From positions 62,001 through 126,000 of the forward strand of contig LDXX01000002.1 in assembly GCA_001442925.1 (NCBI GenBank): a stretch of DNA of 64,000 nucleotides, given 5' to 3'. The notes below the pieces were generated by a model. It had not been told where the DNA came from. It did no database searches and worked only from the letters and a program-made list of their open reading frames with translations. Below, piece by piece: positions 8,513-27,265 of the stretch. Position 1 is the first letter of the stretch. Each line of letters opens with the position of its first letter. The position numbers were made by a program, and so were the translations under genes. The stretch comes from Candidatus Kryptonium thompsonii (GTDB lineage Bacteria; Bacteroidota; Ignavibacteria; Kryptoniales; Kryptoniaceae).

Positions 8513-8518
8513 GTTTTA

Positions 8519-9616
8519 ATGAAAGTGTTAAAATCAAAATTTTTATTTTTTCTTCTTTCAGTTGTTTTTTTAGGAAGTGTTCCAGAGTCACATGTCTATC
8601 GCTATGATGTGCACCATAGTGGAGTTTATCGCGGTGATAAAATTCCAGGGCTTGATAGGTTGAAATGGAAATTTAAAACAAATGGAACGATTTATTCTTC
8701 TCCTGCGGTTGTTAATCAAACGATTTACTTTGGCTCAAACGATGGAAATTTTTATGCGGTTGATTTCAAAACAGGAAAGTTGAAATGGAAATTTAAAACA
8801 GGAAACACTATTGAAACATCACCAGTGTATTTTGATGGAAAAATTTATTTCGGTTCAAATGATAAACATTTTTATTGTCTCGATGCGAGGACTGGTAAGA
8901 TGGTGTGGAAATTTAAAGTTGAGGGTTGGCTTATGAGTTCCCCGATAGTTGTGGACAGCACAGTTTATTTTGGTTCGGGTGAAGGTGTCCTTTATGCGGT
9001 TTCAGCTTCAGATGGAACTCTTATTTGGAAATTCCATGCTCAAAAGGCAATTCATTCATCGCCCGCTTATCACGATGGTAAAATTTATTTTGGTTCGCTT
9101 GATAAAAATTTCTATGCGCTTGATTCTAAGAGCGGGAAACTTGTTTGGGTTGTCGCGACTGGCGGGGTGATAAACAGTTCACCTGTAATTTCTTCGGGTA
9201 TCGTTTTCTTTGGTTCACATGATGGTAATCTTTACGCGGTTGATTCGAAATCTGGCTGGGTGAGGTGGAAATTTCAAACGCGTGGACAAATTACTCAAAC
9301 TCCAGCTGTTGATGATAAAGCAGTTTACTTTAGTTCAGCCGATGGTGTTTTTTACATCTTATCGCTTGATGGAAAACTTATTTGGAAAATAGCCCTTGAT
9401 GAAGTTTCAATATGGAGTCCACCTATCGTAGCTGGTGATTATATCTATACTTGTGTTAATACCGCAACATATTCAGGTGTTTATAGATTGAATAGGAAAA
9501 CTGGGAATATGGATTCGGCGTTTGATTTGTCTAATAGAGTCTTTGCTTCGCCCATTATTGTTGATGGAGTTTTGTTTGTTGGCTCAAAAGATGGATATTT
9601 GTATGCAATTGAGTAA
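8519..9616 (+). CDS. PQQ-like beta-propeller repeat protein, exported
   Basis: The 365-residue protein has an N-terminal hydrophobic signal (KFLFFLLSVVFLGSV) and then about seven or eight near-identical blades of roughly 40 residues. Each has the pattern LxWKFKT...SSPxV...xxYFGSxDGxxYAxDxxTG. This is the PQQ_2/BamB-type propeller. There are no obvious quinoprotein catalytic or haem motifs, so a structural, binding or chaperone-like periplasmic or outer-membrane role is likelier than dehydrogenase activity. It starts 6 bp after the symporter stop codon and may be co-transcribed. BamB is one possibility, but the high blade regularity and lack of a lipobox argue for a generic PQQ-propeller protein. 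Confidence 0.85.
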   Translation: MKVLKSKFLFFLLSVVFLGSVPESHVYRYDVHHSGVYRGDKIPGLDRLKWKFKTNGTIYSSPAVVNQTIYFGSNDGNFYAVDFKTGKLKWKFKTGNTIETSPVYFDGKIYFGSNDKHFYCLDARTGKMVWKFKVEGWLMSSPIVVDSTVYFGSGEGVLYAVSASDGTLIWKFHAQKAIHSSPAYHDGKIYFGSLDKNFYALDSKSGKLVWVVATGGVINSSPVISSGIVFFGSHDGNLYAVDSKSGWVRWKFQTRGQITQTPAVDDKAVYFSSADGVFYILSLDGKLIWKIALDEVSIWSPPIVAGDYIYTCVNTATYSGVYRLNRKTGNMDSAFDLSNRVFASPIIVDGVLFVGSKDGYLYAIE

Positions 9617-9673
9617 TTTGTATTTGTGAGATGCACAAGATGGTTATTTTGTAAAACAAAAAATTGAAAGAAA

Positions 9674-10333
9674 TTGATAGCACTTTTAGCTGGAATAATA
9701 TTTGGTTTAGTTATATCTATACCTGTTGGACCAATAAATCTTACGATACTAACGAAAGGAATGAGAGACGGATTTAAGCCCGCATTTTGGACAGGTGTCG
9801 GGTCTGCAACAATGGAGTTTTTGTATTGTCTTCTTGCGATGTTTGGAATGGGTGCAATTGTTGAACACTCGCTTGGTAATATAATTGTTCAAATTTTTGC
9901 CTTTTTAATTTTGCTTGTTTTTGGGTTTCGTAATCTAATCGTCCATCCGAGAAAAATTTACAATGGTGAATTAGCATTTAATAACGGGAATGGTAATGGC
10001 AAAGTTAGTTTTCTTAAGAAGCATCATATCCATAACACATTTTTAGTTGGCGCGGTTCTTTACGCTTTAAATCCAACATTTATAATCTTTTGGATAACAG
10101 TTGCAGGCTTCGTTCAATCAACAAGTTTAATTGGTAATTCGCTCGATAACTTTTTCTTTGCGCTTGGCGTTGGACTTGGGGTTGTTTTGTGGTTTTATCT
10201 TTTGTTGAAGTTTGTTCATAATTTTGTCGAGTTTAGAACGAGAACGATTGTGCGCTTTCATCGGATTTCGGGGATTATAATCTTAAGTTTCGCTTTTTAT
10301 CTTGCATTCGAGATTTTGAGAAAATTAATATAA
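9674..10333 (+). CDS. LysE family translocator
   Basis: The 219-residue protein has six predicted helices and the LysE/RhtB N-terminal signature IIFGLVISIPVGPINLTILTKGMRDGFKPAFWTGVGSA (the G-P-x-N/G-P element near residues 18-22). These exporters carry amino acids or small metabolites out of the cell. The start is a TTG preceded by GAAAG; no better in-frame start is visible upstream. The substrate is unknown. It is followed 10 bp later by ogt. Confidence 0.85.
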   Translation: MIALLAGIIFGLVISIPVGPINLTILTKGMRDGFKPAFWTGVGSATMEFLYCLLAMFGMGAIVEHSLGNIIVQIFAFLILLVFGFRNLIVHPRKIYNGELAFNNGNGNGKVSFLKKHHIHNTFLVGAVLYALNPTFIIFWITVAGFVQSTSLIGNSLDNFFFALGVGLGVVLWFYLLLKFVHNFVEFRTRTIVRFHRISGIIILSFAFYLAFEILRKLI

Positions 10334-10343
10334 GAGGGGGGAC

Positions 10344-10847
10344 ATGCTTTATTGCACATCTTTTGAAACAATTATTGGTGTGATTTATGTGGCTTCTTCT
10401 GAAAATGGAGTTTGTAAGATCTCTCTTACGCTTGAATCCGCAGATGAATTTAGATCTTGGATAAAAAAACACTTTGATGAGCATGAAGTCGTTGAAAATA
10501 GACTGAAAAATAAGGATGTCATTGAACAGATTAAACTTTATCTGGCAAGGAAATTGAAAAAGTTTGAACTTCCAATTGATCTAATTGGCACAGATTTTCA
10601 AAAGAAGGTATGGCGCGAAACGATGAAAATCCCTTATGGCAATACAATTACGTATTCAGCGTTGGCAAGGAGAATCCATAAACCAAATTCCTACAGAGCG
10701 GTTGCCAATGCCCTTGGAGCCAATCCTTTGCCAATCATAGTGCCATGCCATAGAGTTATCGCTTCGGATGGCTCTCTTGGAGGATACACAGGTGGAGTTA
10801 AAATAAAAGAATTTTTATTGGGACTTGAAGGCGCGAGGGGTGTATAA
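10344..10847 (+). CDS. ogt: Methylated-DNA--[protein]-cysteine S-methyltransferase
   Basis: This 167-residue suicide repair protein transfers alkyl groups from O6-alkylguanine in DNA to its own cysteine. It has the N-terminal ribonuclease-like domain and the C-terminal DNA-binding domain (TDFQKKVWRETMKIPYGNTITYSALA, about residues 80-105). The acceptor motif is PCHRV at about residues 133-137, followed by the substrate loop GSLGGYTGG. Length and motifs are normal for Ogt/MGMT. A strong GAGGGGGG purine stretch precedes the ATG. Its 3' end overlaps the start of the next gene. Confidence 0.95.
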   Translation: MLYCTSFETIIGVIYVASSENGVCKISLTLESADEFRSWIKKHFDEHEVVENRLKNKDVIEQIKLYLARKLKKFELPIDLIGTDFQKKVWRETMKIPYGNTITYSALARRIHKPNSYRAVANALGANPLPIIVPCHRVIASDGSLGGYTGGVKIKEFLLGLEGARGV

Positions 10848-11607
10848 GATTTTATTGACAGCTTTGATTTTTGTTTCTGTTTTAAACGCACAAATTAGAA
10901 TTGTCAATTCAGATGGTTTGAACTTTAAATGTTTAACCGCAAGCTTTTATGAACCTAAAATGGGGTTGATGAAATATTTTGATAGAAATGGGTTAAAGGT
11001 TGACATCGGTAATTCAGTTGATTTGATTGAGATGAAAAATAAAAATTATACCATCACTTTAGGAGCTGATTTTTTTGCTTATGTTCTTGTTAACAATTAT
11101 GGATTCTTAATTTTGAGAGTTGAAGCAATTGATGGTTTCTTCGGAGGCAATGTAAGCGTAAATGGTGAAAGGTTTTCAGGTCGATTTAGAATTCTTCATC
11201 GCAGCGCTCATCTTGTTGACGAATATGGAGAGTTAAATAGAAAACCATTCCCGTTTACAGGAGAATTTGCTGATTTAATTTTGGCTTTTACGCGTGAATT
11301 CTACAGATTATATGGTGGACTATCTTATACATTTAGAATAAAACCAGCGGATGTGAAGAGATTTTATCTTCAATCGGGTTTTGAGCTTTTCAAGGATGTC
11401 AATCCAGTTACAGCAATTTTTGCCTGCGATGTTAAATTTTTGAGTGAAATTTTTGGTCTGAGTTTGATCGGTGGGATAAAACTTGGGCGATGGAACTCAA
11501 GGGGAATTTTTATTTACATTGTTTTTTACGATGGTTTTGATATTTACGGGCAATACTTTAATTTAAAGAAAAAATTTGGCGGTTTGGGTTGTTCATTTGA
11601 ATTTTGA
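10840..11607 (+). CDS. Predicted outer-membrane protein, DUF1207-like
   Basis: The protein has a clear signal peptide (ILLTALIFVSVLNAQ) followed by about 235 residues of alternating short strands rich in aromatic and glycine residues, as in outer-membrane barrels. RFRILHRSAHLVDEYGE with nearby FADLILAF and YRLYGGLSYTFR resembles the DUF1207 family (unknown function). The GTG at 10840 places the signal peptide at the N-terminus and has GAAGGCG upstream; a TTG at 10825 would add five residues. The start overlaps the end of ogt, suggesting coupled translation, and the end overlaps the first possible dnaG start. No function can be assigned. Confidence 0.6.
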   Translation: MYKILLTALIFVSVLNAQIRIVNSDGLNFKCLTASFYEPKMGLMKYFDRNGLKVDIGNSVDLIEMKNKNYTITLGADFFAYVLVNNYGFLILRVEAIDGFFGGNVSVNGERFSGRFRILHRSAHLVDEYGELNRKPFPFTGEFADLILAFTREFYRLYGGLSYTFRIKPADVKRFYLQSGFELFKDVNPVTAIFACDVKFLSEIFGLSLIGGIKLGRWNSRGIFIYIVFYDGFDIYGQYFNLKKKFGGLGCSFEF

Positions 11608-11627
11608 ATGAAGGATCAAAAAGCGAA

Positions 11628-13553
11628 ATGCGAATCCCGGAGGATAAAATAGAGGAGATAAGAAGTTCGGTTGATATTGTTGATTACATAAATCAATTTG
11701 TGTCCTTAAAAAGGGTCGGCAAGAATTATGTAGGACTGTGTCCTTTTCATGCTGAGAAAACCCCGTCATTTACAGTAAGTCCAGATAAGCAACTTTATCA
11801 CTGCTTTGGGTGTGGTGCGGGTGGCAATGTTTTCAATTTTATTATGCAATATGAGAAGGTTTCTTTTTTTGAGGCTGTTAAGAGGATTGCGGAATTTGCT
11901 GGAATAGAACTTCCAAAGCCAGAGAGAAAAGATAGATGGATTGAAACGGAATTTGAAGAACTTTACGAGGCGAATCGTTTTGCTGAGGAGTTTTTTGTCA
12001 AAAGTTTGCTGAAGACATCTGAGGGGAAAAGGGCGATGGAGTATCTTTATAAGCGTGGGGTTAACGATGCGACGATAGCAAAATTTGGGATCGGTTATTC
12101 TCCAGACCAATGGGATGCCCTTGTTCAGCATGCGATAAAGCAAGGTTTTTCGCTTGAGTTGCTTGAAAAGGTTGGCGTTATAATAAAGAAAGAGGATGGC
12201 TCTTATTACGACAGGTTTAGAGGTAGAATTATTTTCCCTATTTTTTCGATCACAGGTAGAATCATCGCTTTCGGTGGGAGAAGGTTAAAAGACGACGAAA
12301 ACATACCGAAGTACATTAATTCTCCCGAAACGAAAGTTTACACGAAAAGCAAGGTTTTGTATGGGCTCTATCAAGGAAGGGATTCGATAAGAAAGAAGGG
12401 GTATGCAATACTTGTTGAAGGTTATATGGATTGTATTTCGCTATTTCAAGCTGGTATTGAAAATGTTGTAGCTTCAGGGGGCACAGCTCTCACCGAGGAA
12501 CAGGTGCGTTTAATTTCAAATTACACGAATACAATTTATTTTATCTACGATGCTGACTCCGCTGGAGCAAGAGCGATGATGCGTGGAGTTGATTTAATAC
12601 TTGCGCAGGGGATTGATGTTTACATTGTTAATTTGCCTGAGGGAGAGGATCCAGATTCGTTCATAAAAAAATATCCTGTGTCTGAATTTGACAAATTAAT
12701 TGAAAATGCTGTTAATTTTGTTGAGTTTAAAGCATCGACCTACCAAAGGCTTGGTAAGCTTGATGATCCAAATGTGAAAGTAAAAGCGATTCGTTCGATT
12801 GTGGAGTCAATTTCGAAAATTCCAGATGCGCTCAAGCGTAGCGTTTTTATTCGTGAAATTTCTTCAAAGTATAAAATCCCAGAGCAAGTTCTTAACGCAG
12901 AGCTTGAGATGGCGATTTTAAGAAGTGGGAAAGAAACGGTGAAGAAGGAGATAAATTCACAGGCTCAAACAGGAAGTTCTGTTATTTTAAAATTTAAATC
13001 AATTCCAGCAGAGGAAAAAGATTTAGCGAAAATCTTGCTTGAAGCGGATGATGTTGTGTTGAGGTTTGTTTTTGAATACATCAAGTTGAGTGATCTTACA
13101 AGTGACTATGTCAAAGCGATTTACCAAAAAGTTCGTGAAGCATTTGAGAAATCTCGGGAGATGAAAGAACGGCAGAAGGTTGATATTATTAATGACTTGT
13201 TAAATGAAGCTGAGAGTGATGACTTTCGGAGCTTTTTGACAAATGTTGTTTTAAGTAAGTATGAAATTAGTTATTTTTGGAGTTTAAAAGATCTTTCGGA
13301 TGAGGAGGATGAGCTTGAAGAGTTATGGAAAGCGGTTGATGATGTTTTGACAAAATTCTACCTACGAAAGATACAGAAGATAGAGCAGAATTTAACCGAG
13401 GAGATAAAGAAGGCAGAAATTTCTGGCGATGAAGAAAAGCTTTCGATGCTTCTATCGAAGAAAAGCGATGTTGGAAGGAAGAAGAATATACTTAGCAATA
13501 GGGGTTTCAAGGATATAATTCGAAAATATCTTAACTCACTAAATCAGGTGTGA
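11628..13553 (+). CDS. dnaG: DNA primase
   Basis: DnaG synthesises RNA primers for replication. The N-terminal CHC2-type zinc finger is intact (CPFHAEKTPSFTVSP...HCFGCGAGGN, about residues 32-60). The catalytic core and TOPRIM domain follow (LVEGYMDCISLFQAG, then IYFIYDADSAGARA, about residues 260-315), and a helical C-terminal region corresponds to the helicase-interaction domain. The open frame extends upstream to a TTG at 11604, but ATG 11628 gives the usual MRIPEDKIEEIR start and has AAGGA upstream. The total, about 641 residues, is a normal length. It overlaps or abuts a ferredoxin gene downstream, an unusual neighbour, so the grouping is probably incidental. Confidence 0.95.
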   Translation: MRIPEDKIEEIRSSVDIVDYINQFVSLKRVGKNYVGLCPFHAEKTPSFTVSPDKQLYHCFGCGAGGNVFNFIMQYEKVSFFEAVKRIAEFAGIELPKPERKDRWIETEFEELYEANRFAEEFFVKSLLKTSEGKRAMEYLYKRGVNDATIAKFGIGYSPDQWDALVQHAIKQGFSLELLEKVGVIIKKEDGSYYDRFRGRIIFPIFSITGRIIAFGGRRLKDDENIPKYINSPETKVYTKSKVLYGLYQGRDSIRKKGYAILVEGYMDCISLFQAGIENVVASGGTALTEEQVRLISNYTNTIYFIYDADSAGARAMMRGVDLILAQGIDVYIVNLPEGEDPDSFIKKYPVSEFDKLIENAVNFVEFKASTYQRLGKLDDPNVKVKAIRSIVESISKIPDALKRSVFIREISSKYKIPEQVLNAELEMAILRSGKETVKKEINSQAQTGSSVILKFKSIPAEEKDLAKILLEADDVVLRFVFEYIKLSDLTSDYVKAIYQKVREAFEKSREMKERQKVDIINDLLNEAESDDFRSFLTNVVLSKYEISYFWSLKDLSDEEDELEELWKAVDDVLTKFYLRKIQKIEQNLTEEIKKAEISGDEEKLSMLLSKKSDVGRKKNILSNRGFKDIIRKYLNSLNQV

Positions 13554-13555
13554 AA

Positions 13556-13756
13556 ATGGTGATAATTAAAGATGGTAAATGCGATTTTTGTGGTTGTTGC
13601 GTTGGAGTTTGTCCTGAAAATTGCATTGAGTTATATGAGGCGGAGATTAAGATAATAGATGAAATTTGCACTGATTGTGGAAAGTGTGTATGGGCTTGTC
13701 CATTCGAAGTCCTTGAACTTCGCATAACCAAAAATAAAAAGGATGAGCTTATATAG
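13556..13756 (+). CDS. 2x[4Fe-4S] ferredoxin
   Basis: This 66-residue protein has two classical cluster motifs: C-x2-C-x2-C-x3-C (CDFCGCCVGVCPENC) and CTDCGKCVWACPF. It is a bacterial-type two-cluster electron carrier. ATG 13556 is taken as start; a GTG at 13550 overlaps the dnaG stop. Its stop codon directly abuts the ATG of the geranylgeranyl-reductase-like gene, so the two are almost surely a functional pair with the ferredoxin as electron donor. A precedent is the ferredoxin encoded beside the Methanosarcina acetivorans geranylgeranyl reductase and needed for it. Confidence 0.92.
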   Translation: MVIIKDGKCDFCGCCVGVCPENCIELYEAEIKIIDEICTDCGKCVWACPFEVLELRITKNKKDELI

Positions 13757-14947
13757 ATGGCTTTTGGTAAGAATTTTCCCAAGTTTGATTATTATGATAT
13801 TGTCGTCGTTGGAGCTGGTCCCGCTGGAACGACCGCTGCAAGATTTGCGGCGATGAGCGGAGCGAGGGTTTTAGTGCTTGAGAAGGATAGGGATGTTGGG
13901 TATCCTGTTAGATGTGGTGAGGCGGTAAGTCACGAGGGACTTGTTCAGTTCATCGAGCCGAACCCAAAATGGATTGCAAGCACAGTTAGATATTTTAAGC
14001 TTGTTGCTCCCGATGGAACAGTTATAAAGCCAAATATAGAGGGTTTTGGATATATACTTGAAAGGCGAATTTTTGATTATGAACTGGCTAAGTTGGCAAC
14101 ATATTGTGGTGCCGAAATTGTGACCAAGGCATATGTCAATGGTTTGATAATGAACGATGGGAAAGTTGAAGGAGTGAAAGTTTTGTTGAATAACTCCGAG
14201 CAGATTGAGATAAGAGCAAAAATAGTGATAGGGGCAGATGGGGTTGAATCCAGGGTTGGGAGGTGGGCTGGGCTTAATACCACATGTAAACTTCAGGATA
14301 TGGAATCGGCAGTGCAGATGACTTTGACAAATATAAATGTTGAGCCAGATACATGTTATTTTTACTTTGGTGAAAAGGTTGCACCAGGAGGATATTTGTG
14401 GGTTTTTCCCAAGGGAGAAAATACAGCAAATGTTGGGCTTGGGATAGCTGGGATTTATGGTAGGCAAAAGCATGCTTTAAGTTATCTTGAAGAGTTTATT
14501 GAAAAAAATTTCCCCAACGCTTCTATTTTGACGGTTATAGCAGGTGGAGTTCCATGTGCAAAGACAGCTGACAAGATTGTGACGCATGGTCTTATGCTTG
14601 TTGGAGATGCAGCGCATCAGGTGAATCCAGTTTCAGGTGGTGGAATAATAAGTGGAATGATAGGTGGGAAAATCGCGGGGCAAATTGCTGGCGAGGCGAT
14701 AAAGAAGAATGATCTTAATTTAATTTTCAACTATGAAAATGAATGGCGAAAAACCCTTGGACAAAGGCATGAGAGATACTACAAGATAAAACAATTTATC
14801 TACAAGTTTTCGGATGAAAAGTTAAATGAAATTGCCAGGGAGCTTTCAAAAATTCCATATGAGAATTTGACGCTTAAAAATCTCTTTTTGACAGCAGTTA
14901 AAGCTCAGCCATCGCTTATAGTTGAAGTGTTGAAACTATTCATTTAA
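13757..14947 (+). CDS. Geranylgeranyl reductase family FAD-dependent oxidoreductase
   Basis: The 396-residue flavoprotein has an N-terminal Rossmann FAD motif (VVGAGPAGTTAARFAAMSGARVLVLEKD, about residues 16-43), the CGEAVS element, the substrate-cavity motif YLWVFPKGENTANVGLG (about residues 213-229) and a second FAD contact LMLVGDAAHQVNPVSGGGI. These are hallmarks of the GGR family, which reduces isoprenoid double bonds in archaeal lipids, chlorophyll side chains or menaquinone tails (MenJ). In a bacterium with the futalosine pathway (mqnD at 46322), menaquinone side-chain saturation is the simplest role; carotenoids or other polyprenyl lipids are alternatives. It is coupled to the ferredoxin just upstream. 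Confidence 0.85.
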   Translation: MAFGKNFPKFDYYDIVVVGAGPAGTTAARFAAMSGARVLVLEKDRDVGYPVRCGEAVSHEGLVQFIEPNPKWIASTVRYFKLVAPDGTVIKPNIEGFGYILERRIFDYELAKLATYCGAEIVTKAYVNGLIMNDGKVEGVKVLLNNSEQIEIRAKIVIGADGVESRVGRWAGLNTTCKLQDMESAVQMTLTNINVEPDTCYFYFGEKVAPGGYLWVFPKGENTANVGLGIAGIYGRQKHALSYLEEFIEKNFPNASILTVIAGGVPCAKTADKIVTHGLMLVGDAAHQVNPVSGGGIISGMIGGKIAGQIAGEAIKKNDLNLIFNYENEWRKTLGQRHERYYKIKQFIYKFSDEKLNEIARELSKIPYENLTLKNLFLTAVKAQPSLIVEVLKLFI

Positions 14948-15024
14948 GAAAACCATTCGAGTTGTGATTTTAAATTTGGTTTAGTAAATTTTTGGAAAAT
15001 GGCACTTTAAAGGAGGCATGGTCT

Positions 15025-16404
15025 TTGCTAAATCAAACAAAAGAACATATTAAAGGTATGGAACCCCAAGAATTTTACAAAGGTCCACGTGGCATTGCAG
15101 TTAAGATCTTAAATCGAGTCGAGAGAACGGATTCATATCTTGATAAACTTCTTGACATTGAACTTAAATCCGACGAGCTTAACGAACTTGACAAGAGATT
15201 TTTGACCGAGCTGACGCATGGCGTGCTGAGATGGAAGACGCGACTTGATTTTATCATTGAATATTTTTGTAAAAACAAGTTTGCAATGCAAGATCCAAAT
15301 ATTCGAAATGCGATGAGGGTAGCTCTTTATCAGATTTTGTTTTTGACCAAAATTCCACATGCTGCTGCTGTAAATGAGGCAGTTGAATTCATCAAGAAGA
15401 TCCGAGGTCAAAAAGCTGCAAATCTTGTCAACGCTGTGCTGAGAAATATAATCCGTAATCTTAATAAACTTCCGACGCCAGATAATGAAACCGATCCAAT
15501 TCAATATCTGTCAATCATGTATGCACATCCAACATGGATTGTGAAGAGATGGGTTGATAGATATGGATTTTATGAAACAGAACAATTGCTTGCTGCGAAT
15601 AATGAACGTCCAACCATCGTCGTAAGAGCTAACTCTTTAAAGACAAATGCTGATGAGCTTGCAAAACTTTTTGATGAGCGTGGCATAAAATATGTTCGCT
15701 CAAAATATCTTGAAAACTTTTTAAAGGTTGGGCATCTTTCCGGGATTTACAATATAGATCTTTTTAGTCAGGGTTATTTCTCAATTCAAGATGAAAGCGC
15801 TGGGCTTGTGGTTAAATTGCTTGATCCAAAGCCTGGGGAGACAGTGATAGATCTTTGTTCAGCCCCCGGTGGGAAAACAACATATATTGGGGAGTTGATG
15901 AAAAACGAAGGGAAGATAATCGCCGTTGATAAGTATGAGCATAGATTAAATCTTGTAAAGCAAAGCTGTGAACGACTTGGACTTACGAATGTTGATTTTA
16001 TCGCTGAGGACGCCACTGCAGCTAACTTTGGGGTGGCGGATAAAGTTTTGGTTGATGCACCATGTTCAGGTTTTGGAGTGATCCAGAAAAAGCCTGACAT
16101 AAAATGGCAAAGAGAACTTTCAGATATAAAAAATCTTGCTAAAACACAACTTGAGTTGCTTGAAACTGCAAGTAAACTTGTCCGAAATGGTGGTGTGATT
16201 GTTTATAGCACATGCACCATTGAACCGGAAGAAAATATTGAGGTCGTTAAATCGTTCCTTGATAAACATCCCGAGTTTGAAATCGAGGATGCAAGAAATT
16301 ATCTCCCATCTGAAGTTGTAACCAATGGTGGTTATATGGAGACATTTCCTCATAAGCATGATATGGATGGTGGGTTTGCGGTAAGGTTAATCAAAACAAA
16401 ATAA
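15025..16404 (+). CDS. rsmB: 16S rRNA (cytosine(967)-C(5))-methyltransferase
   Basis: RsmB methylates C967 of 16S rRNA. It has an N-terminal NusB-like RNA-binding domain (about residues 20-150) and a C-terminal SAM-dependent NOL1/NOP2/Sun domain with DLCSAPGGKTTYIGELM, the cysteine of DAPCSGFGVIQKKPDIKW and the catalytic cysteine of YSTCTIEPEEN. The frame is open from TTG 14992, but TTG 15025 is chosen because a perfect AGGAGG lies at 15010-15015 with a 9-nt spacer; ATG 15058 has no comparable site. The methyltransferase region is complete and of usual length. The ammonia-lyase gene begins 4 bp after its stop. Confidence 0.93.
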   Translation: MLNQTKEHIKGMEPQEFYKGPRGIAVKILNRVERTDSYLDKLLDIELKSDELNELDKRFLTELTHGVLRWKTRLDFIIEYFCKNKFAMQDPNIRNAMRVALYQILFLTKIPHAAAVNEAVEFIKKIRGQKAANLVNAVLRNIIRNLNKLPTPDNETDPIQYLSIMYAHPTWIVKRWVDRYGFYETEQLLAANNERPTIVVRANSLKTNADELAKLFDERGIKYVRSKYLENFLKVGHLSGIYNIDLFSQGYFSIQDESAGLVVKLLDPKPGETVIDLCSAPGGKTTYIGELMKNEGKIIAVDKYEHRLNLVKQSCERLGLTNVDFIAEDATAANFGVADKVLVDAPCSGFGVIQKKPDIKWQRELSDIKNLAKTQLELLETASKLVRNGGVIVYSTCTIEPEENIEVVKSFLDKHPEFEIEDARNYLPSEVVTNGGYMETFPHKHDMDGGFAVRLIKTK

Positions 16405-16407
16405 GCC

Positions 16408-18003
16408 ATGGAAAGAGAGAAAGGCTCGCATCTTGTCATAGTTGATGGTGAAACATTAACCCCTGAAAAAGTTTTTGATGTTGCAGTTAACTTTGCTCCC
16501 GTTAAACTTTCGCAAAAGGCAATCTCCAGGATGAAAAAATCAAGGGAACTTGTTGAAAAGTGGGTTCAAACAGATGAGACAATTTATGGTGTTACCACTG
16601 GGTTTGGAGATTTTGCAACGGTAAGGATAGAGAAAGATAAAATTGAGAAACTTCAGCAAAATCTTATCTATAGTCATTCTGCTGGCGCTGGAGAAGCATT
16701 GCCACCGGAAGTTGTAAGAGCGATGATGCTTTTGAGAGCAAATGCTTTAGCGAAAGGTTACTCCGGGGTCAGGGTTGAAACAGTTGAAATGTTGATCAAT
16801 TTTTTGAATCATTATATAACTCCAATCATTCCATCTCAGGGTTCAGTTGGTTCAAGTGGTGACCTTGTTCAGCTTGCTCACCTTGCTCTTGCAATGATGG
16901 GTGAAGGAGATGTTTGGGTTGGAAAGGATGTTGACCCGTCAAATTTGAAAAGGATGAAATCCACAACCGCTCTTAAAAAATTCGGGTTAAAACCACTTAA
17001 ACTTTCAGCAAAGGAAGGGCTTGCTCTCATCAATGGCACACAAATGATGACAGCTTATGCATGTCTTATCGTTAAGCAAGCTAAAGAATTATGCAAAATT
17101 GCTGATATAGCTGCCTCGCTTAGTATTGAAGCTCTGAAAGGAACGGATAGAGCGTTTGATGAAAGGATTCATAAATTAAGACCTTATCCAGGACAGCAAA
17201 AAGTTGCACGAAATATTTTGAGGATGATGAAGAACAGCGAAATACGGCTTTCGCATCTTTACGATGACCCAAGGGTTCAAGATGCTTACTCTTTGAGATG
17301 TGTTCCCCAGATTCACGGTGCATCGAGGGATGCAATAGATTATGTTTACAATGTTGTTTCAATTGAAATAAATTCTGCAACTGACAATCCCCTGATTTTT
17401 CCAGAAGATAAAATTCATCTTGAGGGTGGAAACTTTCATGGCCAGCCAATTGCTCTTGCAATGGATTTTATAGCTATTGCTTTATCTGAAATTGCTAATG
17501 TGTCTGAGAGAAGAATTGAAAGGCTTGTAAATGCACAGTTAAGTGGATTGCCAAAGTTTTTGACAACTCAAGGCGGATTAAATTCTGGTTTGATGATCGC
17601 TCAATACACCGCTGCATCGCTTGTCTCAGAGAATAAAGTTTTATCTCACCCAGCGAGTGTCGATTCTATTCCGACATCGGCAAATCAGGAAGATCATAAT
17701 AGCATGGGATCAATCGCAGCACAAAAAGCTTATAGGGTTTTGAAAAATGTTCAAACAGTTCTTGCGATTGAAATAATGTGCGCTGCTCAAGGGATTGATT
17801 TTGCGAGGGTTGATTCGAAGACTGGAAAATTGATGAAGTGCGGGGTTGGAACACAAGCGGCTTATGAGTTTGTGAGGGAGAAGATTAAACATCTTGATGA
17901 GGATAGAATTTTATACAACGATATTTTGAAAGCACTTGAAATTGTTAAAAGCGGAGAAATTATAAAAGTTGTTGAGAAAGCAATCGGAGAGGAGCTTGAA
18001 TAA
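16408..18003 (+). CDS. hutH: MIO-type aromatic amino acid ammonia-lyase (HAL family)
   Basis: The 531-residue protein belongs to the histidine/phenylalanine/tyrosine ammonia-lyase family. Visible landmarks are the catalytic Tyr60 in YGVTTGFG, the substrate region SHSAGAGE, LINGTQMMTA, the NQEDH stretch and IHGASRDAI. The cofactor tripeptide that cyclises to MIO is normally Ala-Ser-Gly; here it reads Ser149-Ser150-Gly151 in GSVGSSGDLVQLAH. The sequence is closest in pattern to HutH, yet there is no hutU, hutI or hutG nearby; the neighbours are rsmB and recG, 4 bp away on each side. Histidine deamination is the default call; another amino acid or an aminomutase activity is possible. Confidence 0.85.
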   Translation: MEREKGSHLVIVDGETLTPEKVFDVAVNFAPVKLSQKAISRMKKSRELVEKWVQTDETIYGVTTGFGDFATVRIEKDKIEKLQQNLIYSHSAGAGEALPPEVVRAMMLLRANALAKGYSGVRVETVEMLINFLNHYITPIIPSQGSVGSSGDLVQLAHLALAMMGEGDVWVGKDVDPSNLKRMKSTTALKKFGLKPLKLSAKEGLALINGTQMMTAYACLIVKQAKELCKIADIAASLSIEALKGTDRAFDERIHKLRPYPGQQKVARNILRMMKNSEIRLSHLYDDPRVQDAYSLRCVPQIHGASRDAIDYVYNVVSIEINSATDNPLIFPEDKIHLEGGNFHGQPIALAMDFIAIALSEIANVSERRIERLVNAQLSGLPKFLTTQGGLNSGLMIAQYTAASLVSENKVLSHPASVDSIPTSANQEDHNSMGSIAAQKAYRVLKNVQTVLAIEIMCAAQGIDFARVDSKTGKLMKCGVGTQAAYEFVREKIKHLDEDRILYNDILKALEIVKSGEIIKVVEKAIGEELE

Positions 18004-18006
18004 CTT

Positions 18007-20199
18007 ATGATTGATGGTTCGGTGAAAAAGGCATCTATCACACTTGAAAGTGACATAAGATATCTCAAAGGAATTGGGGGGAAAAGATCCGCAGCGCTTC
18101 GTGATGTCGGCGTTGAGAAGCTCATCGATTTGCTTTATTACGCTCCTGCTAAATATATCGATAGAAGTATGGTTGTAAGTGTTGCGAAGTTGAGAAAAAA
18201 CTGGTGGGAGTTCCAACGCATTAATGCTGTTACATTTATAGGTAGAGTTGTTGATAAAAAAATCTTAGTTAGTTCAGGAGGGCGACAAATTCTTGAAATT
18301 GTGATTGATGATGGGACGGGGAGATTAAGTTGTACTTGGTTCAACAAAATTGAGTATTTCAAAAGACAGTTCGAGATTGGGGATCTCGTCGCAGTATTTG
18401 GAAAGCCAAGTGTTTTCAGGGGTAGAATAAATATCGTTCATCCCGAATTTGATTTCTTAACTGAGGCGGACAGTGTAAATATACATACTGGTAGAATTGT
18501 TCCAGTTTATCCTTTAACTTCAAAATTAAAATCGCTTGGGCTTAACACACTTAAACTTCGTGAGCTTATAAACTTTGTCATAGATAACTATATTGACTAT
18601 GTGGAGGAAACTTTACCCGAAAAAATTCTCGCTAAATATGGGCTTGTTCCGTTAAAATTTGCCATAAGATCAATTCATTTCCCCGAGACGCATGAGGGAT
18701 TACAACTTGCGTTAAAGAGGTTGAAGTTTGAAGAGATGTTTTTGCTTCAACTTCTCCTTGCGAGGAAGCATTACGAGTTGAAACATTTTGAGAAAGGCAT
18801 TTCTTTCAAAAAGATAGGTGAGCTTGTTCACGGTTTCAGCAGGATCTTACCATTTAAACTAACGGAAGCCCAGCGGAGGGTCGTCCGCGAGATATGGAAC
18901 GATATGAAATCTGACAAACCGATGAATCGTTTACTTCAGGGAGATGTTGGAAGTGGTAAAACGATCGTTGCTTTAATTTCAATGTTGATAGCGGTTGATA
19001 ACGGCTATCAGGCTGCGTTCATGGCTCCGACTGAAATTCTTGCGGAACAGCATTACGCCACTTTTTTGAATTTCCTTGATTCCCTCCCTGTAAAAGTTCG
19101 GCTCCTTATAGGGAGCCTAAAGTCAAAGGAAAAGAAGGAGATATTGAGCGAAATTGAAAATGGGGAAGCGCAGATAATTATTGGAACGCACGCTTTAATT
19201 CAAGAAAGGGTAAATTTCAAGAATCTCGGTTTGGTTGTGATTGACGAACAACATCGTTTCGGTGTGATGCAAAGGGCAATGCTTATAGGAAAGGGTTATA
19301 ATCCAGATGTTTTGATAATGACCGCAACTCCAATTCCAAGAACTTTGGCTCTTACAGTTTATGGTGATCTTGATGTATCTATAATAGATGAAATGCCAAG
19401 AAAAAGAAAAGTTAAAACAGAGATCGTCCCTGATACTGAAAGGGAAAGGGTTTACGAATTTCTTCGTTCAAAGGTTAGGGAAGGCCATCAGGCATATATT
19501 GTTTATCCTTTGATTGAAGAATCTGAAAAGCTTGATCTTGAATCAGCGATTGAAAACTATGTTCGCCTAAAAAATGAAGTTTTCCCGGAGTTTAACCTTG
19601 GTTTGGTTCACGGTAGGATGCCCGGGACGGAAAGGCAGGAGGTAATGCTTGCCTTCAAAGAAGGGAAAATTCAAATACTTATTGCAACGACGGTAATCGA
19701 AGTTGGAATTGATATACCCAATGCTACTATAATGGTCATAGAGAGCGCCGAAAGATTTGGGTTATCTCAACTTCATCAGTTGCGCGGTAGAATTGGTCGA
19801 GGGGAGAAGCAGTCATACTGCTTTTTAATAGCGAAGTCAAGTTTATTTAGAAAATCCTCTGATGATGCTTTATTTGAATTTGAAGATGAGGCTACCGAAG
19901 AAAGCAAGGCGATGGAAAGGTTGAAAATCATTGCATCAACAATGGATGGTTTTAAAATTGCTGAGAAAGATCTTGAGCTTCGAGGTCCTGGGGAATTTTT
20001 CGGCACAAAGCAAAGTGGTTTTATAAAGTTTAAATTCGCTGACATCGCAGCTGATAAAGAAATCCTTGAAATAGCGCGTCAGGAAGCATTTGAACTTATA
20101 AAGCAAGATCCGAATCTCTCAAAGCCTGAGCATGCGGGTCTTAAAAAGGAATTTTTAAAACGGTATTCAGATGAAGTTAACCTTGCAAAAATAAGTTAA
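18007..20199 (+). CDS. recG: ATP-dependent DNA helicase RecG
   Basis: RecG remodels stalled replication forks and Holliday junctions. At 730 residues it has the N-terminal wedge/OB domain (about 60-190), Walker A in LLQGDVGSGKT (about residues 311-321), APTEILAEQH, the DEQH Walker B box (VVIDEQHRFG), TATPIPRT, and the helicase C-domain with QLRGRIGRGEKQSYCFL, followed by the TRG-like end (ELRGPGEFFGTKQSGF). It is complete with no unusual features. It starts 4 bp after the ammonia-lyase stop and is probably in the same transcript. Confidence 0.96.
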   Translation: MIDGSVKKASITLESDIRYLKGIGGKRSAALRDVGVEKLIDLLYYAPAKYIDRSMVVSVAKLRKNWWEFQRINAVTFIGRVVDKKILVSSGGRQILEIVIDDGTGRLSCTWFNKIEYFKRQFEIGDLVAVFGKPSVFRGRINIVHPEFDFLTEADSVNIHTGRIVPVYPLTSKLKSLGLNTLKLRELINFVIDNYIDYVEETLPEKILAKYGLVPLKFAIRSIHFPETHEGLQLALKRLKFEEMFLLQLLLARKHYELKHFEKGISFKKIGELVHGFSRILPFKLTEAQRRVVREIWNDMKSDKPMNRLLQGDVGSGKTIVALISMLIAVDNGYQAAFMAPTEILAEQHYATFLNFLDSLPVKVRLLIGSLKSKEKKEILSEIENGEAQIIIGTHALIQERVNFKNLGLVVIDEQHRFGVMQRAMLIGKGYNPDVLIMTATPIPRTLALTVYGDLDVSIIDEMPRKRKVKTEIVPDTERERVYEFLRSKVREGHQAYIVYPLIEESEKLDLESAIENYVRLKNEVFPEFNLGLVHGRMPGTERQEVMLAFKEGKIQILIATTVIEVGIDIPNATIMVIESAERFGLSQLHQLRGRIGRGEKQSYCFLIAKSSLFRKSSDDALFEFEDEATEESKAMERLKIIASTMDGFKIAEKDLELRGPGEFFGTKQSGFIKFKFADIAADKEILEIARQEAFELIKQDPNLSKPEHAGLKKEFLKRYSDEVNLAKIS

Positions 20200-23052: not shown

Positions 23053-23727
23053 TTATTTTTTCAATTTAAATCTTATCGGTATCATCACGCGCACTTTCAC
23101 AGGCTTTCCACGCTGTTTTCCGGGTTTAAACTTTGCTTTCATCACGGCAGCTTGAGCTGCTTCGTCGCAGCCTGCGCCAATCCCTTTGACTACATCAGCC
23201 CTTACGACATTGCCGTTTTCATCAACGAAAGCCATAACGTAAACAGTTCCTTCAACTCCAGCTCTTATTGCTATCTCTGGATATACTACATTTCTCTGGA
23301 TTGATTCAAGACCACCAATTATCTCAGGCATTTCCTCCACCACCATGAAGAATTGCTCCTCAAACGGTATCTCTTCTTCTTTCTTGCTCAATTCCTCCTT
23401 TGGTGGAGGTGGCGCAACCTCTTTTGTGATATCAAGCTCTGAACTTATATCGATGTCGATATCACTTAAAGCCTCATCACTTGGGGCTTCAATTGGGATT
23501 GGTGGTCTTGGTGGTGGCGGTGGTCTATTTTCCTGTCTGGTTTGTGGAATTTCCTCCGGTTTGATTATTTCCTGCTCAACCGTTAAAATCTTCTTGCCAC
23601 GCCCAATATCTTTCGGGAAAAACCTAAACGCAACAATTACCAACAAAAGCGCAATCACCAACCCAAGCTCAATCCACTTCCGCCACCTCAACCTTAAATC
23701 CGCTTCGGGCTTTTTGATAACTGGCAT
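23053..23727 (-). CDS. Energy transducer TonB, copy A
   Basis: The 224-residue protein has a short cytoplasmic start, one membrane helix (IELGLVIALLLVIVAFRFF, about 18-36), a periplasmic proline-rich stretch (PPPPRPPIPIEAP, about 69-81) and a C-terminal TonB domain (about 140-224, with PEIAIRAGVEGTVYVMAFVDENGNV). It transmits proton-motive force to TonB-dependent outer-membrane receptors; no ExbB/ExbD genes are near. It is the downstream copy of a tandem duplication. Copy A has an intact GGAGG ribosome binding site, whereas copy B has GGCGG. Differences from copy B concentrate in the receptor-contacting C-terminal domain. Confidence 0.92.
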   Translation of the reverse strand: MPVIKKPEADLRLRWRKWIELGLVIALLLVIVAFRFFPKDIGRGKKILTVEQEIIKPEEIPQTRQENRPPPPPRPPIPIEAPSDEALSDIDIDISSELDITKEVAPPPPKEELSKKEEEIPFEEQFFMVVEEMPEIIGGLESIQRNVVYPEIAIRAGVEGTVYVMAFVDENGNVVRADVVKGIGAGCDEAAQAAVMKAKFKPGKQRGKPVKVRVMIPIRFKLKK

Positions 23728-23925: not shown

Positions 23926-24600
23926 TTATTTTTTCAATTTAAATCTTACCGGTATCGACACACGCACTTTCACAGGCTTCCCACGCTGTTTGCCGGGTTT
24001 GAATTTTGCTTTCATTACGGCAGCCACAGCAGCTTCGTCACAACCTGCACCAATCCCTTTAATTACCTCGGCTTTTACAACATTACCATTCTCGTCAACG
24101 AAAGCCATGACAATGACTGTTCCCTCAACTCCAGCTCTTATCGCTATCTCTGGATATACTACATTTCTTTGAATTGATTCAAGGCCACCAATTATCTCGG
24201 GAAGTTCCTCTACCACCATAAAGAACTGTTCCTCGAACGGTATCTCATCTTCCTTCTTGCTCAATTCTTCCTTCGGTGGAGGCGGTGCAACCTCTTTCGT
24301 GATATCAAGCTCTGAACTTATATCGATGTCAATATCACTTAAAGCCTCATCACTTGGGGCTTCAATTGGGATTGGCGGTCTTGGTGGTGGCGGTGGTCTA
24401 TTTTCCTGTCTGGTTTGTGGAATTTCCTCCGGTTTGATTATTTCCTGCTCAACCGTTAAAATCTTCTTGCCACGCCCAATATCTTTCGGGAAAAACCTAA
24501 ACGCAACAATTACCAATAAAAGCGCAATCACCAATCCAAGCTCAATCCACTTCCGCCACCTCAACCTTAAATCCGCTTCGGGCTTTTTGATAACTGGCAT
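23926..24600 (-). CDS. Energy transducer TonB, copy B
   Basis: This 224-residue paralogue of the adjacent copy A has the same membrane helix, the same proline-rich linker and a TonB C-terminal domain. Residues 1-115 or so are identical to copy A; afterwards substitutions accumulate (EEE/EDE, EEMP/EELP, TVYV/TVIV, RADVV/KAEVI, AAQAA/AAVAA, VMIPI/VSIPV). The ribosome binding site reads AGGCGG, weaker than AGGAGG of copy A. Each copy has its own promoter and terminator. Likely role is the same energy coupling, perhaps to a different receptor set; it is divergently oriented to the CydA-like genes. Confidence 0.92.
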   Translation of the reverse strand: MPVIKKPEADLRLRWRKWIELGLVIALLLVIVAFRFFPKDIGRGKKILTVEQEIIKPEEIPQTRQENRPPPPPRPPIPIEAPSDEALSDIDIDISSELDITKEVAPPPPKEELSKKEDEIPFEEQFFMVVEELPEIIGGLESIQRNVVYPEIAIRAGVEGTVIVMAFVDENGNVVKAEVIKGIGAGCDEAAVAAVMKAKFKPGKQRGKPVKVRVSIPVRFKLKK

Positions 24601-24829: not shown

Positions 24830-26137
24830 ATGAATTACCCATTTTGGGATGTTCCCTTAATTGGAGGGGGAATTCTAATTGGAATTGTTGCAATTTTACA
24901 TGTCTTTGTAGCTCATTTTGCCATCGGAGGAGGGCTTTACCTTGCTCTAACAGAAAGAAAAGCGATCAAAGAAAATGATCAGAAATTGATTAATTACCTG
25001 AAAAAACATTCAAAATTTTTCCTACTTGTTACAGTTGTATTTGGCGCTTTATCAGGTGTTGGAATTTGGTTCACAATTGGACTTGTTCATCCATCTGCAA
25101 CATCAACTTTAATTCACAGCTTTGTCTTCGGGTGGGCAATTGAATGGGTATTTTTTATCGTTGAAATATCCGCAATTTTAATTTACTATGCGACATGGGA
25201 TAAGCTTGATCCAAAGACGCACAACACGATTGGTTGGATTTATTTCGCAGGGGCTTATCTTAGCCTTGTAATCATCAATGGTATTCTAAGTTTTATGCTC
25301 ACATCTGGGAAATGGGTTGATATTCCATTTACTGAACCTTCGAAAAAATTCTGGGTTGGTTTTTTCAATCCATCGTATTTCCCATCTCTTTTCATAAGAA
25401 CTGGAGTTGCCCTTGCACTTGCAGGTTTATATTCTTTAATAACAGCGACTCGGGTGGAAGACGAAGAGTTGAGAACTAAACTTGTTCAGTACTCAGGAAA
25501 ATGGTTGGTTCCAGCCTTTATTCTCATCCCTGTGGCAGGGATATGGTATATTTCGATTATTCCACCGCTCGCCCGTGAAATTTCAATGGGTGGTGCACCA
25601 GCTGTGACTGTTTTTGCGGTGTTAAGCATTGTTTTTTCGCTTATCATTGCTTTATTTGCGTGGCTTGGACCCATTAAGACACCAAAGCAAACATCATTTG
25701 CATTTGCTTTGGGACTACTTGTTATTGGGTTTATGGTTACCGCTGTAACTGAATGGGTAAGGGAAGCAGTTAGAAAACCATATATAATTTACAACTATAT
25801 GTATTCAAACGCTATCTTGAAAACGCAAGGTGATAAAATAAATGAAATTGGAGCATTAAACTTCGCCAAATGGGTTTCGGTTAAAGAAATAAATGAAGAA
25901 AATGTGCTTAAAGCTGGTGAGGAAATTTTTAGAGTTCAATGTCAAAGCTGTCATACCATTGATGGGTATAATGGAATAAAGAAACTTATAAGTGGTTGGA
26001 GCGAAAACTATATTGATTTTCAACTTCAGCATCTTGATATGTTGAAAGGATTCATGCCTCCGTTCTATGGGACGGAACAAGAAAGAAAAGCACTCGCTAA
26101 GTGGCTTTACAGTTTAAATGAGGAAAAAACAAAATAA
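24830..26137 (+). CDS. CydA-like bd-type oxidase subunit fused to cytochrome c
   Basis: The 435-residue protein has about nine membrane helices (1-325) that align with the core of cytochrome bd subunit I: His24 with the N-terminal haem ligand His19 of E. coli CydA, IEW Glu105 with Glu99, FIVE Glu112 with Glu107, WDKL, and ExxRKPY Glu312 with Glu445 of ExxRQPW. The histidine that binds haem b558 in CydA (His186) is replaced by Arg190 in FIRTGVALALAG, and no quinol-binding Q-loop is visible. Instead a C-terminal cytochrome c domain carries CQSCH (371-375) and a likely Met ligand in GFMPPF. This suggests an oxygen reductase fed by haem c rather than quinol. The next gene encodes a second CydA-type subunit. 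The alignment is by eye. Confidence 0.7.
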   Translation: MNYPFWDVPLIGGGILIGIVAILHVFVAHFAIGGGLYLALTERKAIKENDQKLINYLKKHSKFFLLVTVVFGALSGVGIWFTIGLVHPSATSTLIHSFVFGWAIEWVFFIVEISAILIYYATWDKLDPKTHNTIGWIYFAGAYLSLVIINGILSFMLTSGKWVDIPFTEPSKKFWVGFFNPSYFPSLFIRTGVALALAGLYSLITATRVEDEELRTKLVQYSGKWLVPAFILIPVAGIWYISIIPPLAREISMGGAPAVTVFAVLSIVFSLIIALFAWLGPIKTPKQTSFAFALGLLVIGFMVTAVTEWVREAVRKPYIIYNYMYSNAILKTQGDKINEIGALNFAKWVSVKEINEENVLKAGEEIFRVQCQSCHTIDGYNGIKKLISGWSENYIDFQLQHLDMLKGFMPPFYGTEQERKALAKWLYSLNEEKTK

Positions 26138-27265
26138 ATGGGTTTAAAAATGACACAACAAATTATCATCCCAGAACCTGATCCAATTCCGTTGCCAGCG
26201 CCGTACTGGCTCTTGAAGTTCTTGCTTGTTCTCACATTTATACTGCATATCATTGCTATGAATTTTGCACTTGGTGGCGGTATAATCACTGGCATAACTG
26301 ATTTAATCGGGCGGAAAAAGAACAGTCAATTTCATCTCAATCTTGCTCGTTCTTTTTCAAAAATGCTTCCCATTGCCACAGCGTTTACTATAACGCTTGG
26401 GGTTGCACCACTATTATTCATTCAAGTTCTTTATGGACAGTACTTCTATACTGCATCTATTATTCTCGCATGGCCATGGTTGAGCGTGATTTTGCTTTTG
26501 CTTATCGGATATTATGGGTATTACATTTATCAATTTAATTTCGAAAAACTTCAAGGAGTGAGGGCATGGATTGTGCTTGGAAGCGCTGTTTTATTTGCGT
26601 TGATCGGACTTATCTACACAAATACTCTTGTTTTAATGTTAACTCCAGAGAAATGGGCACAAAAGTATTTCGCTAATCCACATGGGACTAATTTTAATTT
26701 TGACGATCCAACGGTAATCCCAAGATATTTACATTTTCTTGTGGCTTCGGTTTCAGTGGCAGGTTTGCTTGTGTTAATTTATGGTCTTGTCAAATTAAAA
26801 AGCGATGAAAGTTTCGGAAGATGGGCTGTTAGGTATGGTGGGCTCTGGTTTGTAATTGGTACTGTTGTTCAATATGCAACTGGAATATGGTTTTTGCTTG
26901 CTCTTAAAAAAGATCTAATGATGATTTTTATGGGTGGAAATGGAGTGGCGACCGCTGTTTTTGGTATCTCTGTATTGCTTTCGCTTGTTAGTTTAATTCT
27001 TATTTTGCTTTCTTTCAACGCTCAAAATCCGAGACCGCTTTCGATATTTGGCATTGTTTTGCTTTTCTTGACAATTGTTGGGATGGCTGTAATGAGAGAT
27101 ATTTTAAGGGATGCTTATTTGAGTGATTATTTCAAGCCAGAGCAATTCGAGGTTCAACCCCAGATTTCAGTGCTTATTGTTTTTGGAATTGTCTTCATTG
27201 CGGGTTTGATTACTGTTGGTTATATGCTGAACAAGGTTATAAAAGCTAAGCCAGTGACAACTTAA
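26138..27265 (+). CDS. Second CydA-like membrane subunit (CydA'-type)
   Basis: The 375-residue protein starts directly after the stop of the cytochrome-c-fused subunit. Its N-terminal helix ILHIIAMNFALGGGI (His37) parallels ILHVFVAHFAIGGGL of that subunit, and RYLHFLVASVSVAGL (His199) aligns with the region around His186 of E. coli CydA, where the partner has Arg. The acidic residues of the oxygen-reducing site are missing in the corresponding helix (TFTITLGVAPLLFIQ and following), and RDILRDAY replaces ExxRKPY. It is therefore better described as a CydA paralogue than as a CydB. With the upstream gene it probably forms a heterodimeric bd-family oxidase. An alternative start is ATG 26150. Confidence 0.6.
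   Translation: MGLKMTQQIIIPEPDPIPLPAPYWLLKFLLVLTFILHIIAMNFALGGGIITGITDLIGRKKNSQFHLNLARSFSKMLPIATAFTITLGVAPLLFIQVLYGQYFYTASIILAWPWLSVILLLLIGYYGYYIYQFNFEKLQGVRAWIVLGSAVLFALIGLIYTNTLVLMLTPEKWAQKYFANPHGTNFNFDDPTVIPRYLHFLVASVSVAGLLVLIYGLVKLKSDESFGRWAVRYGGLWFVIGTVVQYATGIWFLLALKKDLMMIFMGGNGVATAVFGISVLLSLVSLILILLSFNAQNPRPLSIFGIVLLFLTIVGMAVMRDILRDAYLSDYFKPEQFEVQPQISVLIVFGIVFIAGLITVGYMLNKVIKAKPVTT

Follow-up and report, generated by a model that had tools for sequence, protein, structure and literature searches.

Two adjacent membrane-protein genes of Candidatus Kryptonium thompsonii, both resembling CydA, raise the question whether they encode a cytochrome bd-type enzyme built from two CydA-like subunits and, if so, where its electrons enter. 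The genes lie in the 64,000-nucleotide stretch of contig LDXX01000002.1 that we analysed (the window). A first-pass annotation of this DNA had proposed a heterodimer that takes electrons from cytochrome c, with the haem sites divided between the two subunits. Our best explanation, to which we assign a probability of about 0.8, is that the two proteins, A and B, form an oxygen reductase of the bd superfamily that is fed by cytochrome c. It would be of the OR-C type, an assignment made by the described features of that family.

A conserved gene pair

Both open reading frames, and the motif in the first transmembrane helix (TM1) of CydA that they had been noted to share, were confirmed. The features of the locus are:

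24830–26137, plus strand: gene A, predicted catalytic CydA-type subunit with a C-terminal cytochrome c domain (435 residues; Pfam, AlphaFold, 80-member alignment)
25940–25954, plus strand: CQSCH haem c attachment motif, residues 371–375 of A (80/80 sequences)
26150–27265, plus strand: gene B, predicted CydA' partner subunit (profile match to A, AlphaFold; start from relative L111)

Gene B adjoins gene A and runs in the same direction. Its frame is open over 26138–27265 (375 residues), and the TAA stop codon of A abuts the ATG of this frame with no gap. The start of B is probably Met5 (26150) and not 26138, because in the close relative L111 the frame does not open before the residue that corresponds to Lys4. 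One flank of the pair holds recG and genes for CoA-binding, transglycosylase, CorC-like and TonB proteins; the other holds a peptidase gene and rimP-nusA-infB. The TonB-type genes and the peptidase gene that bracket the pair are both on the opposite strand, and no respiratory genes were found adjoining A and B in this genome. The two TonB_C genes (23053–23727 and 23926–24600, both minus strand) adjoin each other, encode 224 residues each and resemble a tandem duplication. Elsewhere in the window, the plus-strand gene at 53498–55588 encodes a multihaem cytochrome c that resembles MtrC/MtrF and C7 and carries a C-terminal sorting domain of the Por secretion (T9SS) type.

The pair was found in four of six genus mates, the two without it having the least complete genomes (78% and 71%). 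Within the genus, where dS is not saturated, dN/dS is about 0.04–0.05 for A and B, as expected of genes under strong purifying selection. This selection, together with the presence in four of six genus mates, rules out a pseudogene or an artefact. Chance resemblance is excluded because of the profile E-values, the Z-scores of about 30 between the AlphaFold models and solved CydA structures, and the purifying selection. Judged from sequence and model comparison, the gene pair is real.

Subunit A keeps the CydA fold and the oxygen-site residues

AlphaFold2 models, based on 80 aligned sequences for A and 71 for B, have a mean pLDDT of 92.5 (A) and 94.8 (B). The structure comparison (VIA-align) gives the CydA fold for both proteins: against solved CydA chains, the A model reaches Z 30–32 over model residues ~5–329 and the B model Z 27–30 over residues ~20–373. 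The next-nearest family for both, the membrane subunit of alternative complex III, reaches Z 17–19. Residues 17–198 of A also match the Pfam family Cyt_bd_oxida_I with 52.6 bits (cut-off 26.2). By eye, A had been said to keep equivalents of E. coli CydA His19, Glu99, Glu107 and Glu445, and the profile alignment bears this out. These residues and Arg448 correspond to H24, E105, E112, E312 and R315 of A, respectively, each present in 80/80 sequences; the oxygen-site residues are also kept in another five relatives, of which four are at 37–38% identity. By its Pfam match, predicted fold and strictly conserved active-site haem residues, A belongs to the cytochrome bd superfamily. Arg190, Glu308 and Arg311 are likewise invariant in A.

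Predicted secondary structure gives A eight TM helices, with a cytochrome c domain after the last of them. This domain (residues 360–426) matches Pfam Cytochrome_CBB3 with 36 bits (cut-off 27), and the CQSCH motif reported for it is present throughout the alignment. Met409 is invariant (80/80) and is likely the sixth ligand of the haem c. The domain is predicted to lie on the periplasmic side, where CydA continues into TM9, because the number of helices is even and the loops placed on the cytoplasmic side are enriched in Lys and Arg. In a genus mate (L114) and in Ca. Kryptonia L002, a close relative at 93% identity, A is 534 residues long and has a tandem pair of cytochrome c domains at its end, the second domain being 67% identical to the single one in the window. 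Two CxxCH motifs are also found in A of Acidobacteriaceae members and of some other groups.

Subunit A lacks the haem b558 relay and the quinol site

In E. coli bd-II, His186 and Met393 bind haem b558, Glu445 binds haem b595 and His19 binds haem d; Trp441 is proposed to act as a relay of importance to electron transfer (PMC8585947). The first-pass annotation had placed Arg190 of A at the position of His186. The register is one residue off: N177+9 leads to H186 in E. coli, and N180+9 leads to Ile189 in A, a variable column (F, V, I, M, L, S, A, T), with Arg190 (N180+10) following it. That A is without the b558 histidine nevertheless stands. At the position of Trp441, all 80 A sequences have a glutamate (Glu308) and 11/11 quinol-type CydA sequences have Trp. 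The Q-loop is replaced by a turn of ~13 residues between TM6 and TM7 in both A and B, and the Lys252/Glu257 region is absent from both loops. Thus the b558 ligands and the Q-loop, present in 11/11 quinol-type CydA, are absent from A.

We also looked for equivalents of His186 and the Q-loop elsewhere in A. Across the 80-member alignment, TM5 and TM7 contain no conserved His or Met that could substitute as a b558 ligand. Other conserved histidines, His60, His96 and His131 (aligned with E. coli His126), lie at helix ends; for this reason His60 and His131 were rejected as rescue ligands, and His96 may still be a candidate. His29 is conserved in A, was lost in more distant relatives and was rejected on that account. 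Because His186, Met393, Trp441 and the Q-loop are all absent, A misses the entire b558 relay and not just one of its ligands.

Subunit B is best read as a CydA paralogue

Nine TM helices are predicted for B from its secondary structure. No Pfam family matched it, and phmmer gave a weak match to the CydA of G. thermodenitrificans (E 0.0019). The B family profile is more informative: it matches the A profile with E = 1.9e-16, quinol-type CydA with 6.6e-6 (9e-7 with more references) and CydB with 1.5e-4. Because these values favour A and CydA over CydB, B is best read as a CydA paralogue, and its identification as CydB is less likely. A and B are closer to each other than to CydB or quinol-type CydA, in agreement with the idea of two CydA-type subunits. 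The predicted CydA fold and the profile match of 9e-7 place B in the cytochrome bd superfamily as well.

The equivalent of His19 in B is His37 (71/71), and that of Arg448 is Arg324. TM3 of B contains no acidic residue, and therefore B has no equivalents of Glu99 and Glu107. The earlier statement that B lacks the acids of the oxygen site holds for these two and fails at the position of Glu445, which is occupied by Asp321 (D in 46/71, H in 21/71). Further conserved polar residues of B are Met41, Gln96, Tyr99, Arg196 and Met316.

As had been proposed, B has a histidine at the place of His186: His199 is in exact register (D190+9 = H199) and is present in 65/71 sequences of the main set. The six without it are exactly the B genes seen in operons with Rieske and cytochrome b genes, and they may reflect a single loss because they belong to one clade. 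His199 is also absent, replaced by Met or Phe, in four of five further pairs from other genomes. Overall, it is missing in 10/76 B proteins, while the catalytic residues of A never vary, and TM7 of B offers no Met393-type partner for it. Complementary haem ligands in the two subunits are thus no general rule. A haem in B is possible and is not required by the pattern of His199 conservation.

A and B stay together, and some clades add redox partners

In 73 of the 80 relatives, B adjoins A or is parted from it only by Rieske and cytochrome b genes; in the other seven the contig ends too soon, so that B is present in all relatives whose contig extends far enough. The gene order varies (A-B, A-A-B, B-A, B-Rieske-cytochrome b-A), and the partners stay together throughout. 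The identity matrices of A and B correlate with r = 0.91 over 67 pairs (best of 2000 permutations, 0.15), a value to which shared ancestry alone also contributes. Three loci from Ignavibacteria/Bacteroidota (L003, L008, L010) carry two different tandem A genes followed by one B, and their two A copies fall in separate regions of the tree.

The only neighbour genes common to relatives are Rieske and cytochrome b genes, in one clade. A second group of relatives carries an enlarged A:

L065, L072, L073, L074, L075, L078, L079, L081: Rieske/cytochrome b loci, for example B-Rieske-cytochrome b-A at L074:5369-9386
L054:8001-10670, with L055, L057, L061, L063, L064, L066-L068, L070, L071 and L077 similar: multihaem A loci, B upstream

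The first group comprises eight loci from Acidobacteriota, Armatimonadota and Planctomycetota, all with a bc-type cytochrome b gene directly upstream of A. Upstream of cytochrome b, seven of them have a Rieske gene, the exception being L075, whose contig begins within cytochrome b; the six whose contig extends further have B ahead of the Rieske gene. Gene ends touch or overlap in the L074 operon. The eight loci form one clade (100/100 support), and the same search found no Rieske and cytochrome b genes in the loci of other relatives. In the B-Rieske-cytochrome b-A operons, no separate cytochrome c gene lies between these genes.

In the second group, 13 sulfate reducers and Bacteroidota, A (~880 residues) has an additional C-terminal multihaem domain, MtrC/C7-like, with seven more CxxCH motifs, giving eight haems c in all; one of the 13 copies, L059, is cut short in this reading. 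In all these variants, those with two CxxCH included, haem c or Rieske partners are added to or linked with A at its predicted periplasmic face.

The genome of the window (2.59 Mb, 98.5% complete) has no match to PF02322 and thus no cydB, in keeping with the two-CydA reading. CydC has no match above cut-off. Three cytochrome c assembly proteins, four bc-type cytochromes b and two haem-copper oxidases are present, and because of the latter the A/B pair need not be the main oxidase. Two Rieske-cytochrome b pairs of the same genome, at G000:C3 ~325536-328747 (L121) and G000:C14 ~7300-18600 (L122), cluster with octahaem and larger multihaem cytochromes of up to 18 CxxCH.

A proposed path from haem c to oxygen

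The pair of CydA-type subunits, the missing quinol site, the haem c domain, the absence of cydB, the strict pairing and the Rieske operon together point to electron entry via haem c, as the first-pass annotation had suggested. The cytochrome c assembly genes and the additional c-type haems fused to A in other clades also count for this reading. The Rieske/cytochrome b operon provides genomic evidence for the electron path, and it comes from another clade and not from the genome of the window.

We infer the haem content, the donor, oxygen as the substrate and the direction of electron flow as follows. A would be the catalytic subunit, its TM helices holding two active-site haems, with Glu312 at a b595-like haem and His24 and Glu105 at the oxygen-binding haem. 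Its periplasmic C-terminal domain would carry one covalent haem c (CQSCH, Met409). This haem c would be reduced by a periplasmic donor, which may be a soluble cytochrome of the c type or a bc complex itself, and would pass its electrons, with no b558 haem in between, to the di-haem site, where oxygen would be reduced. The cytoplasm would supply the protons by way of Glu112 (E. coli Glu107), so that turnover should be electrogenic. B, a CydA' in the place of CydB, would act chiefly as partner or scaffold and might bind a haem itself.

The observations can be joined into a broader picture, which is speculative and which we think unlikely as a whole. Removal of the b558/Trp441/Q-loop relay would have made the bd fold haem-c-fed. 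In the Rieske clade, AB would dock on the bc complex with the haem c domain of A in the role of cytochrome c1, and the resulting quinol:oxygen supercomplex would need no mobile cytochrome c; a B haem on His199 would occur only in stand-alone lineages.

Alternative explanations

Could the haems be divided between the subunits? A low-spin haem b in B, held by His199 and/or His37, would then replace b558, and electrons would pass from haem c to the haem of B and on to the di-haem site of A. The exact register of His199, the invariance of His37 and the conserved polar residues of B are consistent with this arrangement. However, His199 is absent from six of six Rieske-linked B proteins and from four distant pairs with A unchanged, TM7 of B has no equivalent of Met393, and CydB, which B seems to replace, is without haem in the bd enzyme of C. 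glutamicum (PMC9846854). We consider such a relay possible, if on the unlikely side. In the form first proposed, the division is not supported: A has lost the whole b558 apparatus, and the histidine of B is neither universal nor paired with a Met393-type ligand.

It is improbable that the enzyme reduces something other than oxygen, for example nitric oxide or peroxide, or that its task is oxygen detoxification instead of respiration. Bd enzymes do have such side activities, the genome also encodes two haem-copper oxidases, and octahaem fusions of A occur in sulfate reducers. Against this, A keeps the full set of oxygen-site residues, including the equivalent of Glu107 on the proton route.

A conventional bd-type quinol oxidase carrying haem c as an accessory would account for the shared superfamily and the same active-site residues, but the short TM6-TM7 loop in both subunits, without the Lys252/Glu257 region, and the absence of His186, Met393 and Trp441 make it highly improbable. 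With no CydB in the genome either, a canonical quinol oxidase (qOR) was rejected. Reverse electron transfer from cytochrome c to quinone, a possible role given to Nitrospina bd-like proteins without a Q-loop (PMC3578206), is barely credible here: neither A nor B shows a quinone site, A never varies at its oxygen-site residues, and the scanned parts of the window have no lithotrophic gene context.

Comparison with known systems

All bd oxidases characterised by 2021 were quinol oxidases, according to a review of that year (PMC8509429), and phylogenomics predicts bd families fed by cytochrome c. One of these is OR-C (Murali, Gennis, Hemp 2021, ISME J 15:3534), taken here as described in citing papers (PMC8509429, PMC13189123, PMC11707229); its bd core holds two active-site haems and lacks a quinol site, and cytochrome c is the expected donor (PMC8509429). 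A/B share the bd core, the putative cytochrome c donor and the missing quinol site (a TM6-TM7 turn of ~13 residues, no His186 or Met393), and no difference is evident by the descriptions in those papers. The CydA of OR-C is said to carry a haem c at its C-terminus and to have a CydA' partner; A likewise has a C-terminal CxxCH and Met409 in 80/80 sequences, and B is a predicted CydA' in place of CydB. Our search of the literature found no report of a bench study of an OR-C-type enzyme. The best reading is that A/B is a member of this genome-described kind, biochemically unexplored as far as we found. The pair and its relatives, one of which is the cultured Desulfogranum japonicum, are concrete targets, and the invariant residues Arg190, Glu308, Arg311 and Met409 of A predict how haem c may replace haem b558.

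The OR-N CydAA' of Nitrospinota and Nitrospirales (PMC10839748, PMC12342949) are similar in having two CydA-type subunits, no CydB and cytochrome c as the putative donor. OR-N5 pairs adjoin alternative complex III, comparable to the Rieske/cytochrome b linkage among the relatives of A/B. The Nitrospina bd-like protein (PMC3578206) has 14 TM helices, three of which replace the Q-loop, whereas A has eight and its own haem c domain. Canonical CydAB (E. coli bd-I and bd-II, G. thermodenitrificans bd) resembles A/B in fold (Z ~30) and oxygen-site residues; A/B differ from it in lacking the Q-loop, the b558 ligands, Trp441, TM9 of CydA and CydB, and in having a haem c domain instead. An archaeal CydAA' (Caldivirga), two CydA paralogues without CydB, reportedly oxidises quinol. 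A and B are likewise two CydA paralogues, but the pair has no quinol site and carries a haem c domain.
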